DNA of 64,000 nt. Origin: Wenzhouxiangella sp. 15190. Its GTDB lineage: Bacteria > Pseudomonadota > Gammaproteobacteria > Xanthomonadales > Wenzhouxiangellaceae. Below are positions 12,874 to 19,112 of the stretch, piece after piece. Each line of letters opens with the position of its first letter. The first letter of the stretch is position 1. Below the pieces are notes generated by a model. The model was given only the letters and a program-made list of their open reading frames with translations. It was not told where the DNA came from and ran no database searches. A program made the translations under genes and the position numbers. The stretch is taken from NCBI RefSeq assembly GCF_003417465.1, contig NZ_QVMV01000028.1, positions 124,001-188,000 on the forward strand, written 5' to 3'.

Positions 12874-13293
12874 TTACCGCGAGTATATCTCATCAGCGCC
12901 GAAAAAGAAGGCGATTTCCTCTTTTGCCGTATCCTCGCCGTCCGAGCCGTGCACGGCGTTGGCGTCGATACTGGAGGCAAAATCGGCCCGAATCGTGCCG
13001 GGAGCGGCCTGGCGCGGGTCGGTGGCACCCATCAATTCGCGGTTTCGGACGACGGCATCCTCACCTTCGAGCACCTGGACCATCACCGGGCCCGAGGTCA
13101 TGAACTCAACCAGATCGTTGAAGAAGGGCCGTTCACGATGGACCGCGTAGAATCCTTCGGCCTCTTCACGGGTAAGATGCTTCATTCGTGCGGCGACGAT
13201 TTTCAGGCCGGCGCGCTCGAAGCGCGTAAAGATTTCACCGATGATGTTCTTGGCCACGGCATCGGGCTTGATGATGGACAGTGTGCGTTCCAT
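12874..13293 (-). CDS. ndk: Nucleoside diphosphate kinase
   Basis: A 139-residue protein of standard length: start [16 protein letters not shown], phosphohistidine His115 in the NAVHGSDG motif, and end [11 protein letters not shown]. It balances cellular NTP/dNTP pools. It is the first gene of the leftward operon that ends with der. The 278 bases upstream (13294-13571) hold the divergent promoter region; a leftward TATACA-like -10 is visible at 13371-13376, and I see no gene there. Confidence 0.97.
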
Positions 13294-13571
13294 TCCTGCT
13301 CCTTGGGATCAAACTGGAAATAAGTAACTCGCCCACACGGCCTTTTGACGCCATCGGGCAAACCGCGAATTGTATACCTGAATGGCTGCCGATTCATGCC
13401 CCGACCCGGTTGTTTTCCGCAATCAGCCCGTCAAAAGGGCTTGTACCCGAGGATATTGGGTGCTCATAATGAACTTTCCGGATCCGGGCGCTGCGCAAAC
13501 CGGGGGAACAGATTAATACCCGTATGCACACGATCCGAACAGCGTCCGGCTGCATTTTTCGGGAAGGGATA

Positions 13572-16481
13572 ATGCGCCAACTCATCGGTGTGACGGCAGC
13601 TTGTGTGCTGTTGTGGTCAATCATGCCCGGCCTGGCTCTTGCCCAGGTCGGCCAACTGCCGTTCGATGAATTGCATCGCCAGACCTGGACCACCCGTCAG
13701 GGCCTCCCGCACAACACCGTCAACGATATAGCCCAGACACCCGACGGCTACCTTTGGTTCGCGACCTGGGAAGGCATCGCGCGATTCAACGGTCACCGCT
13801 TCAGAATCTTTCAGCGCGGCCCGACCACGGGCTTACCCGATGCAGGCTCCCTGTCGCTTTCGGTCGACGATCAGGGCCGGCTACTGGCAGCCGGCGCCCG
13901 CGGCGGGCTTTCCGTCGCCGATGGCCCCCGGTGGCAGCCATTGCCTACCGCTCCGACCATGATCTCGCACGCGCTTATCGACAGCCGCGGCCAACTGTGG
14001 ATTGCGACCCAGGGCGCCGGCGTCATTCACCGCGAATTCCGGGAGGACGGCAGCACCGTGGCCAGGGAAACGCTTCTGCCAGGCGCTTCCGCCTATCAGA
14101 TTCTCGAGGACGATCGGGGGCTCTGGGCGGGTACCTCCAGGGGGCTGCTACGAATCACCCATGACGGAGAACACAGCCTGGTCGGTGCCGAACAACTGCC
14201 CCCGTCCCCGGTACTCAGCCTGCTCGAGAGCTCCGACAGGGGGTTGCTGGTGGGTACCGAACAGGGGCTTTACGTGCGTAACGCCGCCGACAAGCCGTTC
14301 GAACTTCTGCATGAAGCATTCGAAAACCTGGCCGTAAGCACGCTACTCGAGGACGACAGCGGCGCACTCTGGATCGGCACCATCAACTCGGGCCTGTTTC
14401 GTCTCAACAAACGGGGCGTGCAACGACTCGATACCGATGAAGGCCTGCCCAACAACCGCGTCGTATCGCTGTTTCAGGATTTCGAAAAAAGTCTGTGGGT
14501 GGGCACCAATGGTGGTCTGTTGCGCCTGCGCTCGGCACCGTTCGTGACCACCACGCGCGATCAGGGCCTGGTCGGCAACTATGTGCGCGCCGTCATGCCG
14601 CACTCGGACGGCAGCCTCTGGGTCGGAACCAGCGAGGGTGTCAGCCGGATTGACGGAGACCGGATAACGACCATACGCGATGGCGAACGCGCCCTGCCCC
14701 TGTCCACCCTCAGCCTTGCCGAATTACCGGGGGGCGATGTGCTCATCGGCACCCATTCCGACGGCGTCCTCCACTGGCGGGATGGCCGAATCGTGGCGCG
14801 CCACAATCGCAGCACTGGCCTGCCGTCGAACGACATCCGCTATCTGCACGCGAAGAGTGAGGCAGCGATATGGGTGGCGACGGCCAGCGGCCTGGCGAGA
14901 ATCCATCGTGATGGAACGCAGGTCTACATGCCCGAAGACGGGTTGCCCGGTGATTTTGTCATCGCCGTCAAGGAAGATAGCCGGGGCGAAATCTGGGTCG
15001 GCACGGGTTTCGGCCTGGCGCGTTTCAAAGGGAGCGATTTCGAGCCGATCTCCTTCTACCACCTCGACGAAACCATGTACGTTTACGGCATCCATGAAGA
15101 CCGTGAGCAGTACTTGCTGTGGCTGGCGACCGACCGCGGGCTAATCCGCTACGACCCGGAGTCAGGACACGGCGATCTGGTCGGTCGCGACGCCGGCATG
15201 CCAGTCGACAAGCTGTTCCATGTGGTTGACGACCGTCACGGTGCTTTCTGGCTGACCAGCAATCGCGGCATTATCCGGGTTATCAAGCGTCAGGCCGAAG
15301 CCGTGGCCGATGGCCGGCGCGAGACCATCGACTTCGAGCTCTACACCGAGGGTGACGGCCTGCTCAGCGCGCAAGCCAACGGTGGCGCCGGCCCGCCGGC
15401 CGCCTGGCACGCAGGCAGGGTCTGGGTCGCAACGTCGGCGGGCCTAGCGCGCGTTGATCCCGAACACCTCACCCGCTACGAAAACACCACGCTACCGGTC
15501 AGCATCGAGCACTTCGAGGCCGACGGACGAGTCATGCCGATCGACGGGCCCGTCAGTCTCAAGGCGGGCACCGAACGCGTGGTCGTCCAGTATGCCGGGC
15601 TCGGTTTCATCATGCCGCAGCGAATCCGCTATCGGACGCAGCTCGAAGGCTTCAACGACGACTGGGTCGAACGCCAGGGACAGAATGTCGCCGAGTACAC
15701 CAACCTCGGCCCAGGCGAATACGTCTTTCGCGTATCCGCCGCCTACCCGTACGGCAACTGGAACGGTTCCGAAACCACCCTGCGTTTCTCCATTGCACCC
15801 CTGCCCTGGCAGCGCGCCTGGTTCTGGGTGCTGGTCGCCCTGGGACTGGTGGGCCTGATCGCGCTCGCTACGCAATGGCGGATGCGCCGACTCGAGATGC
15901 GCGCCGATCAATTGCGCGCCCAGGTCGAGGAAAAAACCCGCGAACTCAAGCAACAGGCTGAAGACTTCGAGCGCCAGGCCCGCATCGACCAGCTCACCGG
16001 CCTCGCCAACCGGCGGGCATTCGACGAGTGGCTGGCGAAGGAATTCCAACGCAGCCACGAGGATAACCGCCCACTGAGCCTGGTCGTCATGGACCTGGAC
16101 CACTTCAAGCAGATCAACGACGAATACTCGCACCTCATCGGCGACGAAGTGATGTGCGTCGTTGCCGACGTACTGCGCGAGCACGTGCGCATCGGCGATC
16201 AGGCGGCGCGCTGGGGCGGCGAGGAATTCACGCTGACCTTCCACGATATCGACAGTGACCGGGCCGCGCAGATCAGTGAGCGTATCCGCAAGTCGATCGA
16301 AACCACCGATTTCGGTCAGCTCGCCCACGGATTGCACATCACGGCCAGTTTCGGCGTGAGCGACAACCGCCACGCGAACAGCTATGAAGATCTGCTGCGA
16401 CAGGCCGATCAGGCGCTCATGCAGGCCAAGGCTGAAGGCCGGAATCGAGTCGCAATGCACGGTTCCACGAGCAATTCGTGA
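13572..16481 (+). CDS. Propeller-sensor diguanylate cyclase (two-component-propeller/Y_Y_Y/GGDEF)
   Basis: A 969-residue protein from ATG 13572, preceded by GAAGGG. An upstream ATG at 13524 would bury the signal peptide. Order: signal peptide ending ALAQ; many repeats of the type GYLWFATWEGIARFNG, QLWIATQGAG and SLWVGTNGG that form periplasmic seven-bladed propellers; a Y_Y_Y domain (about residues 643-736, RTQLEGFNDDWVE ... LGPGEYVFRV); one transmembrane helix (about 746-768); a short coiled coil; and a GGDEF domain with active-site GGEEF near residue 880 and an intact RxxD inhibitory site (RIGD, five residues before). It should make cyclic di-GMP in response to a periplasmic ligand. Confidence 0.92.
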   Translation: MRQLIGVTAACVLLWSIMPGLALAQVGQLPFDELHRQTWTTRQGLPHNTVNDIAQTPDGYLWFATWEGIARFNGHRFRIFQRGPTTGLPDAGSLSLSVDDQGRLLAAGARGGLSVADGPRWQPLPTAPTMISHALIDSRGQLWIATQGAGVIHREFREDGSTVARETLLPGASAYQILEDDRGLWAGTSRGLLRITHDGEHSLVGAEQLPPSPVLSLLESSDRGLLVGTEQGLYVRNAADKPFELLHEAFENLAVSTLLEDDSGALWIGTINSGLFRLNKRGVQRLDTDEGLPNNRVVSLFQDFEKSLWVGTNGGLLRLRSAPFVTTTRDQGLVGNYVRAVMPHSDGSLWVGTSEGVSRIDGDRITTIRDGERALPLSTLSLAELPGGDVLIGTHSDGVLHWRDGRIVARHNRSTGLPSNDIRYLHAKSEAAIWVATASGLARIHRDGTQVYMPEDGLPGDFVIAVKEDSRGEIWVGTGFGLARFKGSDFEPISFYHLDETMYVYGIHEDREQYLLWLATDRGLIRYDPESGHGDLVGRDAGMPVDKLFHVVDDRHGAFWLTSNRGIIRVIKRQAEAVADGRRETIDFELYTEGDGLLSAQANGGAGPPAAWHAGRVWVATSAGLARVDPEHLTRYENTTLPVSIEHFEADGRVMPIDGPVSLKAGTERVVVQYAGLGFIMPQRIRYRTQLEGFNDDWVERQGQNVAEYTNLGPGEYVFRVSAAYPYGNWNGSETTLRFSIAPLPWQRAWFWVLVALGLVGLIALATQWRMRRLEMRADQLRAQVEEKTRELKQQAEDFERQARIDQLTGLANRRAFDEWLAKEFQRSHEDNRPLSLVVMDLDHFKQINDEYSHLIGDEVMCVVADVLREHVRIGDQAARWGGEEFTLTFHDIDSDRAAQISERIRKSIETTDFGQLAHGLHITASFGVSDNRHANSYEDLLRQADQALMQAKAEGRNRVAMHGSTSNS

Positions 16482-16522
16482 AATAACGCCCGAACACCGG
16501 AGAAACTTGCGCTACACCGCGA

Positions 16523-16550
16523 TTCACGCCTGCCATGACTTCGCTATACT
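16523..16550 (+). promoter_or_regulatory. Possible sigma-70 promoter for the PDZ-GGDEF gene
   Basis: TTCACG (16523-16528) and TATACT (16545-16550) are separated by 16 bases and lie about 115 bases upstream of the ATG at 16666. The -10 is good and the -35 weak. Confidence 0.35.
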
Positions 16551-16665
16551 GCTTGGTCAAGGATCCAAAAAAGGGGTATAAGGTCTTGAATCCGTTCGAA
16601 TGCATTCGGCTCGCCGGCCACGCATTCGCCGCCTGTGTGTCCGCCTGCCTGGAAGGCAACTGCGC

Positions 16666-18939
16666 ATGAGTCGTCTCCCGCTCACCAGGCGTCGCGGCGG
16701 CAGCATCCTCGTGCCGACGGCCATCAGCTTGCTGGTGGCCGCCCTGCTGATCTGGTCGGTCGTCGACGAGTGGCGATTTGCGCAGCAGAGAATCGGCGTG
16801 GCCATCGACGAAACCGAACAGGGGCTCATGATCGATGTCGTCGAGCCGGACACGCCGGCGGCTCAGGCCGGGTTGCAGGTCGGCGACCGGCTCCTCAGCC
16901 TTGAAGGTAACGCCTTTTCGACCCTTTCCGAACTGGACGAGATACTCGAGCGACACCAGGAGCCCGGCAAGCCGCTTCGGGGCCGAATCGAACGTGACGG
17001 CCGCACGGTCGATATCGAACTGACCCCCGGCACCGCCCTGGATCTCGCCGGGCTGCTCGCCAAATTCGTACTCGTTGCCGCGTATCTGGGGCTTGCAGCC
17101 CTGGCGGGCCGTTATCAAAAGCAGGACCTACGGGCGCGCATCCTCACCATCTTCGTCGCCCTCGTTGCGATCGAACTGGCCATTCCAGACGGTCACACGC
17201 TGGGCACACTGGCGATTACCGCCAGCGTGCTCTTCTGGCTTTTGTCGACGGGTGCGCAAATCGGCATGGAGCTGCATCTCGTCAGCCTCATCCCGGGGCG
17301 ATTGCCCGTCCTGAAGCGGCATCCTCGACTGGTCTGGGGCTACTACGCAATCGGAGCCGGAGCCGGCCTGGGGCTGACGGGCCTGGCCGTCCACCAATGG
17401 TATTTCGCGGCCCCCGGTGGACCCGATCTGCTGGGCGTGGCCGAGACGACGGTCTTTCTCACCTGGGCCATATCGGCGGTCGGTATTCTCTCCTGGCAGG
17501 CCTGGCGCGCGGACTCTGCACGCGCGACCAACCAGGCACTCATGGTGCTCGCCGGCCTTCTGCCCTGGGCCATCTACGTCATTGTCTCGAGCCTGTGGTC
17601 GGGCTGGGCCGGGCTGGATCCGGACATCGCCGAACAGATCGAAAACATCGTTCTGCTGATCTTCCCGGCCACGGTCTTCCTGGCCATCTTCCGGTACGGC
17701 CTGTTTGACGTCGAAACACTTGTCCGGCGGGGCCTGGTCTACGGCTCGGTGACCGTCCTGGTCATCGTCGTGCTATATACGCTGCTCACCACGGCGCTGC
17801 CTCTGGTCGAACGCCAGCTGGGCACCCAGACCGGTCAGTGGATCATCACGGCCTGCGCACTACTGATCGGTGTTCTGTTTCGCCCGCTCCGACACGGTAT
17901 CGAACGCCTGGTCGAGCGAGGATTCTTCCCCTCACGCCGCGCGTTGCGTTATCTCCTCATCCAGGTCGCACGCGGCCTGTCCACGCAGAACCGGCTCGAA
18001 AGCCTCATCCAGCAGCTTGCCAATGACACCCGGGAAGCGATGGATCTGAGCTGGTCGGCAGTCGTGGCCGTGGACGAGCCACAGAAAGGCCTGGCCACGG
18101 CATTCAGCGAAGGTATCGAGCCGAAACAGCGGGATCGACTGACCTGGCTACTCAACGAACGCTCCGAGGCGTTCGAGATCCTCGACCGCCTGCGTCGCCC
18201 GATCACGGTCAACCGGCTTCGGCGACAAAATGAGCAAGCGGCCGAAGATCTGAGCACGGCGGGTGCCGAGGTCCTGCTTCCCCTTTATTTCCAGCGCCGA
18301 ATGATCGGCATTCTCTGCCTGGGCAGGAAACTCAACGGCGAGTTGTTCCGCCGTGAAGAAATCGAACTGCTCGACCTGTTCTCGCACCAGATCGCCACGA
18401 GCCTGGAGAACCTGCGCCTGTTCCAGGACGCGACCTACGAGGAGCTCACCGGCCTGTTGCGCCGCGAAGTCGTTCTGCGCCAGCTCGATACCGAGGCTGC
18501 CCGCGCCGTTCGCAAGAACACACCGTTGTCCGTGTGCATGATCGACCTCGATCACTTCAAGGCCGTCAATGACGCCCACGGCCATCTGTTCGGCGACCGC
18601 ATCCTCGCCCGCGTCGCCGAAGTGATGCGCGAACGCGTGCGTGCCGTCGATGCACTGGGACGCTACGGGGGCGAGGAGTTCCTCCTGGTGCTCCCCGACA
18701 CCGACGGGGAAGGCGCGCGCAAGCTTGCCGAAGAACTGCGTAGAGCCGTTGCGGATCTGGCCTTCGAAGTTCCCGACGAAAGCGGCACGCTGGGCGTGAC
18801 AATCTCCATTGGTACGGCCACCGGAACATCCGACGATGACGATGCAGACGAGTTCGCAGCCCGACTGTTGCGCGGCGCCGATAATGCGGTCTTCCAGGCC
18901 AAGTCCAGCGGACGCAACCGCATCGTCGACGGGTCCTGA
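16666..18939 (+). CDS. PDZ / multi-TM / GAF / GGDEF diguanylate cyclase
   Basis: A 757-residue protein from ATG 16666, which has GGAAGG nine bases upstream; the in-frame ATG at 16600 lacks such a site. Order: one helix (about 14-31); a PDZ domain (about 45-118, VVEPDTPAAQAGLQVGDRLL), probably periplasmic; about eight more membrane helices (125-415); a cytoplasmic GAF-like domain (about 435-590); and a GGDEF domain with RYGGEEF at residues 665-671 and an RAVD inhibitory site five residues upstream. The membrane part (FRYGLFDVETLVRRGLVYG) resembles that of some multi-TM sensor kinases. It should synthesise cyclic di-GMP. A PDZ domain in front of a cyclase is unusual. Confidence 0.9.
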   Translation: MSRLPLTRRRGGSILVPTAISLLVAALLIWSVVDEWRFAQQRIGVAIDETEQGLMIDVVEPDTPAAQAGLQVGDRLLSLEGNAFSTLSELDEILERHQEPGKPLRGRIERDGRTVDIELTPGTALDLAGLLAKFVLVAAYLGLAALAGRYQKQDLRARILTIFVALVAIELAIPDGHTLGTLAITASVLFWLLSTGAQIGMELHLVSLIPGRLPVLKRHPRLVWGYYAIGAGAGLGLTGLAVHQWYFAAPGGPDLLGVAETTVFLTWAISAVGILSWQAWRADSARATNQALMVLAGLLPWAIYVIVSSLWSGWAGLDPDIAEQIENIVLLIFPATVFLAIFRYGLFDVETLVRRGLVYGSVTVLVIVVLYTLLTTALPLVERQLGTQTGQWIITACALLIGVLFRPLRHGIERLVERGFFPSRRALRYLLIQVARGLSTQNRLESLIQQLANDTREAMDLSWSAVVAVDEPQKGLATAFSEGIEPKQRDRLTWLLNERSEAFEILDRLRRPITVNRLRRQNEQAAEDLSTAGAEVLLPLYFQRRMIGILCLGRKLNGELFRREEIELLDLFSHQIATSLENLRLFQDATYEELTGLLRREVVLRQLDTEAARAVRKNTPLSVCMIDLDHFKAVNDAHGHLFGDRILARVAEVMRERVRAVDALGRYGGEEFLLVLPDTDGEGARKLAEELRRAVADLAFEVPDESGTLGVTISIGTATGTSDDDDADEFAARLLRGADNAVFQAKSSGRNRIVDGS

Positions 18940-18991
18940 GGCAAGAACGTGGACGGCTCCCCGAGTACGGCAAAAATTTCCGTCGAGTCGC

Positions 18992-19021
18992 TTGACGAAT
19001 CAGTGCTCAACCAGCAAAATA
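18992..19021 (+). promoter_or_regulatory. Probable tRNA-Asn promoter
   Basis: A near-consensus -35 TTGACG (18992-18997) and an AT-rich AAAATA (19016-19021) at 18-base spacing lie just upstream of the tRNA. Confidence 0.45.
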
Positions 19022-19035
19022 TGCGGCTTCACGAT

Positions 19036-19112
19036 TCCCCGGTAGCTCAGCTGGTTAGAGCGGGTGACTGTTAATCACTAGGTCGTTGGTTCGAATCCGA
19101 CCCGGGGAGCCA
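19036..19112 (+). tRNA. tRNA-Asn (GTT)
   Basis: A 77-base cloverleaf including an encoded CCA. The acceptor stem pairs TCCCCGG with CCGGGGA. The D-arm is AGCTCAGCTGGTTAGAGC, the anticodon loop is CTGTTAA with anticodon GTT, and the T-arm is GGTTCGAATCC. It stands alone, with its own promoter and terminator. Confidence 0.97.

Follow-up and report, generated by a model that had tools for sequence, protein, structure and literature searches.

The gene at positions 16666..18939 (+ strand) of the window (the whole stretch of Wenzhouxiangella sp. 15190 DNA that was analysed, 64,000 nucleotides) encodes a diguanylate cyclase of 757 amino acids with the layout TM1-PDZ-9TM-GAF-GGDEF, as judged from the open reading frame, Pfam matches, hydropathy, and orthologues. 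This receptor-cyclase is real, conserved, and intact; its catalytic part is ordinary and its input is unusual. We propose, with a probability of roughly 60%, that it is a one-component membrane receptor with cyclic di-GMP (c-di-GMP) as the output, and that its ligand, as we infer, is probably a peptide or an exposed protein C-terminus. The first-pass annotation of this DNA had given the same coordinates, and we confirmed that reading frame. A probable ribosome-binding site (GGAAGG, 16651..16656, + strand, as are all of the features below) lies 9 nt 5' of the ATG at 16666.

Domains and membrane topology

The PDZ-like segment that the first-pass annotation had seen is a genuine PDZ domain (aa about 43-120, 16792..17025). 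In a Pfam scan with the 779-aa reading frame starting at 16600 as the query, three PDZ profiles scored above their cut-offs: PDZ_2 (E = 1.1e-11, 45.3 bits, cut-off 27), PDZ_6 (37.7 bits, cut-off 27), and PDZ (28.9 bits, cut-off 23.2). PDZ profiles also matched 24 of the 24 relatives that we aligned to the window protein, although these had been collected with a profile that contains the PDZ itself. The Pfam scores and the relatives together rule out a chance match. The segment also folds as a PDZ domain in the structural models (pLDDT of about 70-88 in two AlphaFold2 models), and in a model of the sensor it superposes on the PDZ domain of DegS with Z = 13.3 and an rmsd of 1.8 A over 80 residues. 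The nearest solved PDZ folds are those of DegP, DegQ, RseP, and DegS, the last with activating peptides such as YQF, and a profile comparison with solved PDZ domains agrees with the assignment.

At the other end of the protein, the GAF domain (aa about 444-582, 17995..18411) is matched by GAF_3 (43.2 bits, cut-off 27) and by the GAF profile, which is likewise above its cut-off, and the GGDEF domain (aa about 590-752, 18433..18921) scores 134.1 bits (cut-off 23.8). The active-site motif GGEEF (aa 668-672, 18667..18681) and the RxxD product-inhibition site, or I-site (RAVD, aa 659-662, 18640..18651), are intact, and both are intact in all 22 of the GGDEF-type proteins examined. As these motifs are intact, the cyclase is probably active and product-inhibited, which is what the first-pass annotation had supposed. 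GGDEF domains filled the results of fold searches with the whole model, and those of PleD, WspR, and GcbC are among the nearest solved structures. The window protein shares GGEEF, RxxD, and the fold with these I-site cyclases but differs from them in its input, a receptor with a PDZ domain and ten transmembrane helices.

Hydropathy alone gives nine peaks. We rejected a nine-helix layout because, with the N-terminus inside, it would put the cyclase outside the cell, and because a tenth helix (aa about 220-246), hidden within a 59-residue "loop," is present in both AlphaFold models. These models were built from only 9 sequences (mean pLDDT of 70.5 and 76.1; pTM of 0.48 and 0.66), and in each of them the linker is preceded by exactly ten long helices, the first and second of which flank the PDZ domain. 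Thus, as the annotation had it, the PDZ domain stands between a first helix and a multi-helix region, and hydropathy, charges, and models taken together put the number of helices after it at nine. TM1 (aa 14-33, 16705..16764, N-terminus inside) comes from hydropathy, and the models show a helix at 15-41. TM2-TM8 (aa 126-347, 17041..17706) are delimited by the models and by Pfam matches in relatives, as discussed below. TM9 and TM10 form a hairpin (aa 359-407, 17740..17886; hydropathy, charge count, and models), and alignments show a conserved basic linker from TM10 to the GAF domain (aa 408-442, 17887..17991).

For the ten-helix layout, the predicted inside loops carry 15.0 lysines and arginines per protein and the outside loops carry 2.2 (about 67 inside and 33 outside residues, with the PDZ loop left out), and the inside count exceeds the outside count in 24 of 24 sequences. 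As we chose the segment limits ourselves, this is support rather than proof. From the charge bias and the ten-helix models, the PDZ domain is predicted to be periplasmic and the GAF-GGDEF part cytoplasmic. The placement of the PDZ domain outside the cytoplasm, which the first-pass annotation had implied, is therefore borne out as a prediction.

TM2-TM8 correspond to the HisKA_7TM region (PF16927) of relatives. One close relative (L054) matches this family above the cut-off (30.6 bits, cut-off 28.6), and its match maps onto aa 133-349 of the window protein. HisKA_7TM was matched by 4 of the 24 aligned relatives, and the window protein itself had no match to it at E up to 1 in the Pfam scan. Compared with the HisKA_7TM histidine kinases, the window protein adds TM1 and the PDZ domain in front and a cyclase behind. 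With the sensor-only model, VIA-align also aligned TM2-TM8 to G-protein-coupled receptors (GPCRs), with Z up to 14.3 and an rmsd of about 4 A over about 226 residues; the tool warns that Z values in this range may be explained by a common helix arrangement. As there was also no GPCR among the best 50 Foldseek matches, we treat the likeness to GPCRs as a lead only.

Relatives and genomic neighbourhood

The first-pass annotation had proposed a search for the same architecture, and we found it within the genus and in Acidobacteriota. Our family search covered 43 genomes (the window's genome, 29 others of the genus, and 13 of other genera). Orthologues with a full-length sensor match (46-71% identity) are present in 10 of the 29 other Wenzhouxiangella genomes, and a full-length sensor match was found in 0 of the 13 genomes of other genera. 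All 11 Wenzhouxiangella proteins have the order TM-PDZ-TM-GAF-GGEEF. In 368 other Gammaproteobacteria, there was no match at 1e-15 and no full-length relative, and when 397 other Pseudomonadota were scanned twice, none of the matches listed was a full-length relative. The full sensor profile matched 176 of 398 Pseudomonadota genomes, and among the matches listed, all but the window's own gene cover the PDZ part only. As the alignment-profile scans of many genomes scored just 4 to 6 candidates per genome, absences from these scans should be read as lower bounds.

Some fragmentary or distant relatives were seen in other Pseudomonadota. L130 (994-2781, - strand) combines the membrane part with a PDZ match (28.3 bits, cut-off 27). 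Its GAF scores are weak, and Pfam gives it no cyclase or other catalytic domain; it is possibly a receptor that lacks an output. L135 resembles it by eye and has no PDZ match. L131, L136, and 17 similar loci are short frames (about 230-480 aa) that match only the last two helices of the sensor and the linker, and the short frame of L131 bears HATPase_c.

In Acidobacteriota, the complete architecture occurs in a metagenome-assembled genome (L046) whose sensor is 36% identical to that of the window protein. Of 297 Acidobacteriota genomes scanned, 59 had matches at 1e-12, many of them partial, and in 12 a GGDEF-type protein carried the sensor at close to full length. GGEEF is visible in 11 of these 12 proteins; the other one (L065) ends with its contig. 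We ran Pfam on 10 of the 12 and on 10 others out of a longer list of matches. The same kind of sensor is found on PAS-HisKA-HATPase kinases (L071, L077, and L086, which are PDZ-10TM-GAF-PAS-HisKA-HATPase, a ComP-like layout). In two other proteins (L080 and L088), a PDZ-membrane-GAF sensor is joined to a SpoIIE phosphatase. The PDZ scores are weaker in the kinase and SpoIIE set (above the cut-off in L077, L080, and L088 and slightly below it in L071 and L086). Because this kind of sensor is also found on HisKA/HATPase and SpoIIE outputs, our data suggests that it is an exchangeable input module. Neither this reuse nor the sharing with Acidobacteriota had been seen in the first-pass annotation.

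In a tree of 32 sensor regions from Wenzhouxiangella and Acidobacteriota, the 11 Wenzhouxiangella sequences form a single clade (100/100) within the GGDEF-type group and join Acidobacteriota lineages at an unresolved fork. Gene exchange between Acidobacteriota and Wenzhouxiangella, in either direction, is likely. (The GC content of the gene, 64.0% versus 63.6% for the window, gives no signal of a recent acquisition.) The kinase and SpoIIE types included lie on the opposite side of the tree from the GGDEF-type group (100/97). One GGDEF-type protein (L070) groups with the kinases, so there may have been more than one exchange of outputs, although the branch of L070 is long.

In the window, the gene sits between a second diguanylate cyclase directly upstream (13524-16481, + strand; Reg_prop propeller repeats, Y_Y_Y, and GGDEF) and a tRNA-Asn gene (19036-19112). 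Beyond the Reg_prop cyclase are genes that, from their sequences, we take to be ndk and rlmN. The interval from ndk to tRNA-Asn (12874-19112) is a small variable cyclase site beside a tRNA gene in Wenzhouxiangella. Both cyclases are at the site in five genomes (the window's, L039, L040, L099, and L100), the PDZ cyclase alone in four (L042-L045), the Reg_prop cyclase alone in one (L089), and neither in one (L090); in two more (L102 and L103), the PDZ cyclase is at another location. Nine further rlmN regions (L091-L098 and L101, of which L094 is short) have neither cyclase nor the tRNA gene. As each cyclase gene is found at the site without the other, they are not an obligate pair, and the two are gained or lost independently in the genus.

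We also ran the search for conserved neighbours that had been proposed along with the annotation. Over 15 loci from both phyla, nothing except the PDZ cyclase gene itself is widely shared; other genes recur within small sets of loci, chiefly L152, L153, and L155. Among the same loci, there is no widely conserved adjoining gene that could be a dedicated ligand gene. The window's genome has 40 GGDEF matches in 3.1 Mb, which is a rich c-di-GMP network, so the PDZ cyclase would be one of many inputs.

What the receptor may sense

The closest known layout is that of ComP, the sensor of the Bacillus ComQXPA peptide-pheromone system. One report describes ComP as having ten predicted transmembrane helices, its two ends in the cytoplasm, and a loop of PDZ fold that connects TM1 to TM2, and says that the detailed mechanism of ligand binding remains unclear (PMC9620489). 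Another calls a PDZ domain with one transmembrane helix before it and nine after it "characteristic of a ComP-like HK" (PMC3353171). The window protein is predicted to have this layout: one helix, the PDZ domain, nine helices, and both termini inside. The likeness is one of layout, as it appears from comparison with published descriptions of ComP. Unlike ComP, the window protein has GAF-GGDEF as its output rather than HisKA/HATPase, and for this reason we do not classify it as a ComP kinase. It also differs in having no comQ, comX, or comA alongside; the adjoining genes in the window are ndk, rlmN, the Reg_prop-GGDEF cyclase, and tRNA-Asn. A census of comQXPA loci reports them from Firmicutes and from no other phylum (PMC4008528). 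Plasmid searches gave no ComP-like protein among the matches listed, and one match (H20) is a PDZ protein of another kind.

We found no protein with both PDZ and GGDEF domains described in the open-licence literature. An apparent mention of PDZ in Azospirillum c-di-GMP papers refers only to plasmid pDZ-119, and in a paper on YfiN, PDZ is present only in the title of a cited work.

The architecture that emerges from the sequence and the models is an N-terminus inside, TM1, a periplasmic PDZ domain, the HisKA_7TM-like bundle of TM2-TM8, the TM9-TM10 hairpin, and a cytoplasmic GAF-GGEEF part with an I-site; that is, the sensor layout of ComP-like kinases with GAF-GGDEF standing in for the kinase. 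The groove of the PDZ domain would bind a secreted peptide or the exposed C-terminus of an envelope protein near the membrane. Binding would move the seven-helix bundle and the hairpin, the pair of GAF domains would then re-orient and bring two GGDEF domains together, and c-di-GMP would be made until the I-site turns the enzyme off. A dedicated partner gene would not be required.

The first-pass annotation had favored the sensing of unfolded or specific envelope proteins. An unfolded envelope protein is a possible ligand, and a ComP-like peptide receptor, or a ligand site in the seven-helix bundle with an accessory PDZ domain, would fit equally well. In its DegS-like form, in which the PDZ domain would bind misfolded proteins of the outer membrane or periplasm by their exposed C-termini and so raise c-di-GMP, we consider the envelope-stress idea unlikely. 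The PDZ domain is predicted to be periplasmic and its closest solved folds are those of DegS, DegP, DegQ, and RseP, but the latter carries little weight, because HtrA and RseP PDZ domains dominate the solved bacterial set. Also, the sensor layout is ComP-like rather than DegS-like, and no conserved envelope-stress gene lies alongside in the 15 loci compared. The likeness to DegS and RseP is in the PDZ fold; in contrast to those sensors, the window protein has no protease domain, and the signal would pass to c-di-GMP within a single polypeptide. HtrA and RseP proteases commonly carry PDZ domains, so the PDZ domain might instead recruit a periplasmic protease, or itself be recruited by one, and clipping of the receptor by this protease would be the activating step. 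This seems highly improbable, as Pfam finds no protease domain in the window protein and no type of neighbour is widely conserved over the 15 loci.

A somewhat unlikely alternative is that the seven-helix bundle binds the ligand (a hydrophobic small molecule or a lipid) and that the PDZ domain is a scaffold, a localisation tag, or a gate. Most of the invariant columns of the sensor are in the membrane part, including the motifs ELHLxSxIP and RYxLFDxExxVRR, and two Acidobacteriota proteins (L082 and L083) combine a related membrane part with a kinase and give no PDZ match in Pfam. However, the PDZ domain is present in all 24 aligned relatives, with the bias in their collection described above. 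The GAF domain could also be the true sensor of the window protein.

A broader idea, doubtful as it is, is that an unnamed bacterial module (TM1-PDZ, a GPCR-like 7TM bundle with its N-terminus out, a TM hairpin, and usually GAF) reads peptides or C-termini from outside the cell and is traded among cyclase, histidine kinase, and SpoIIE outputs. ComP would be its one studied member, and the Wenzhouxiangella cyclase version, held in common with Acidobacteriota, would be a single-protein peptide-to-c-di-GMP system. If our main proposal holds, extracellular peptide reception of the ComP type would be tied to c-di-GMP in Gram-negative bacteria via one protein, and an envelope or peptide signal could become c-di-GMP without any partner protein. 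As this kind of sensor is joined to three different outputs, the cyclase version would also lend itself to an easy assay, with a c-di-GMP reporter, of the ligands of PDZ-10TM receptors.
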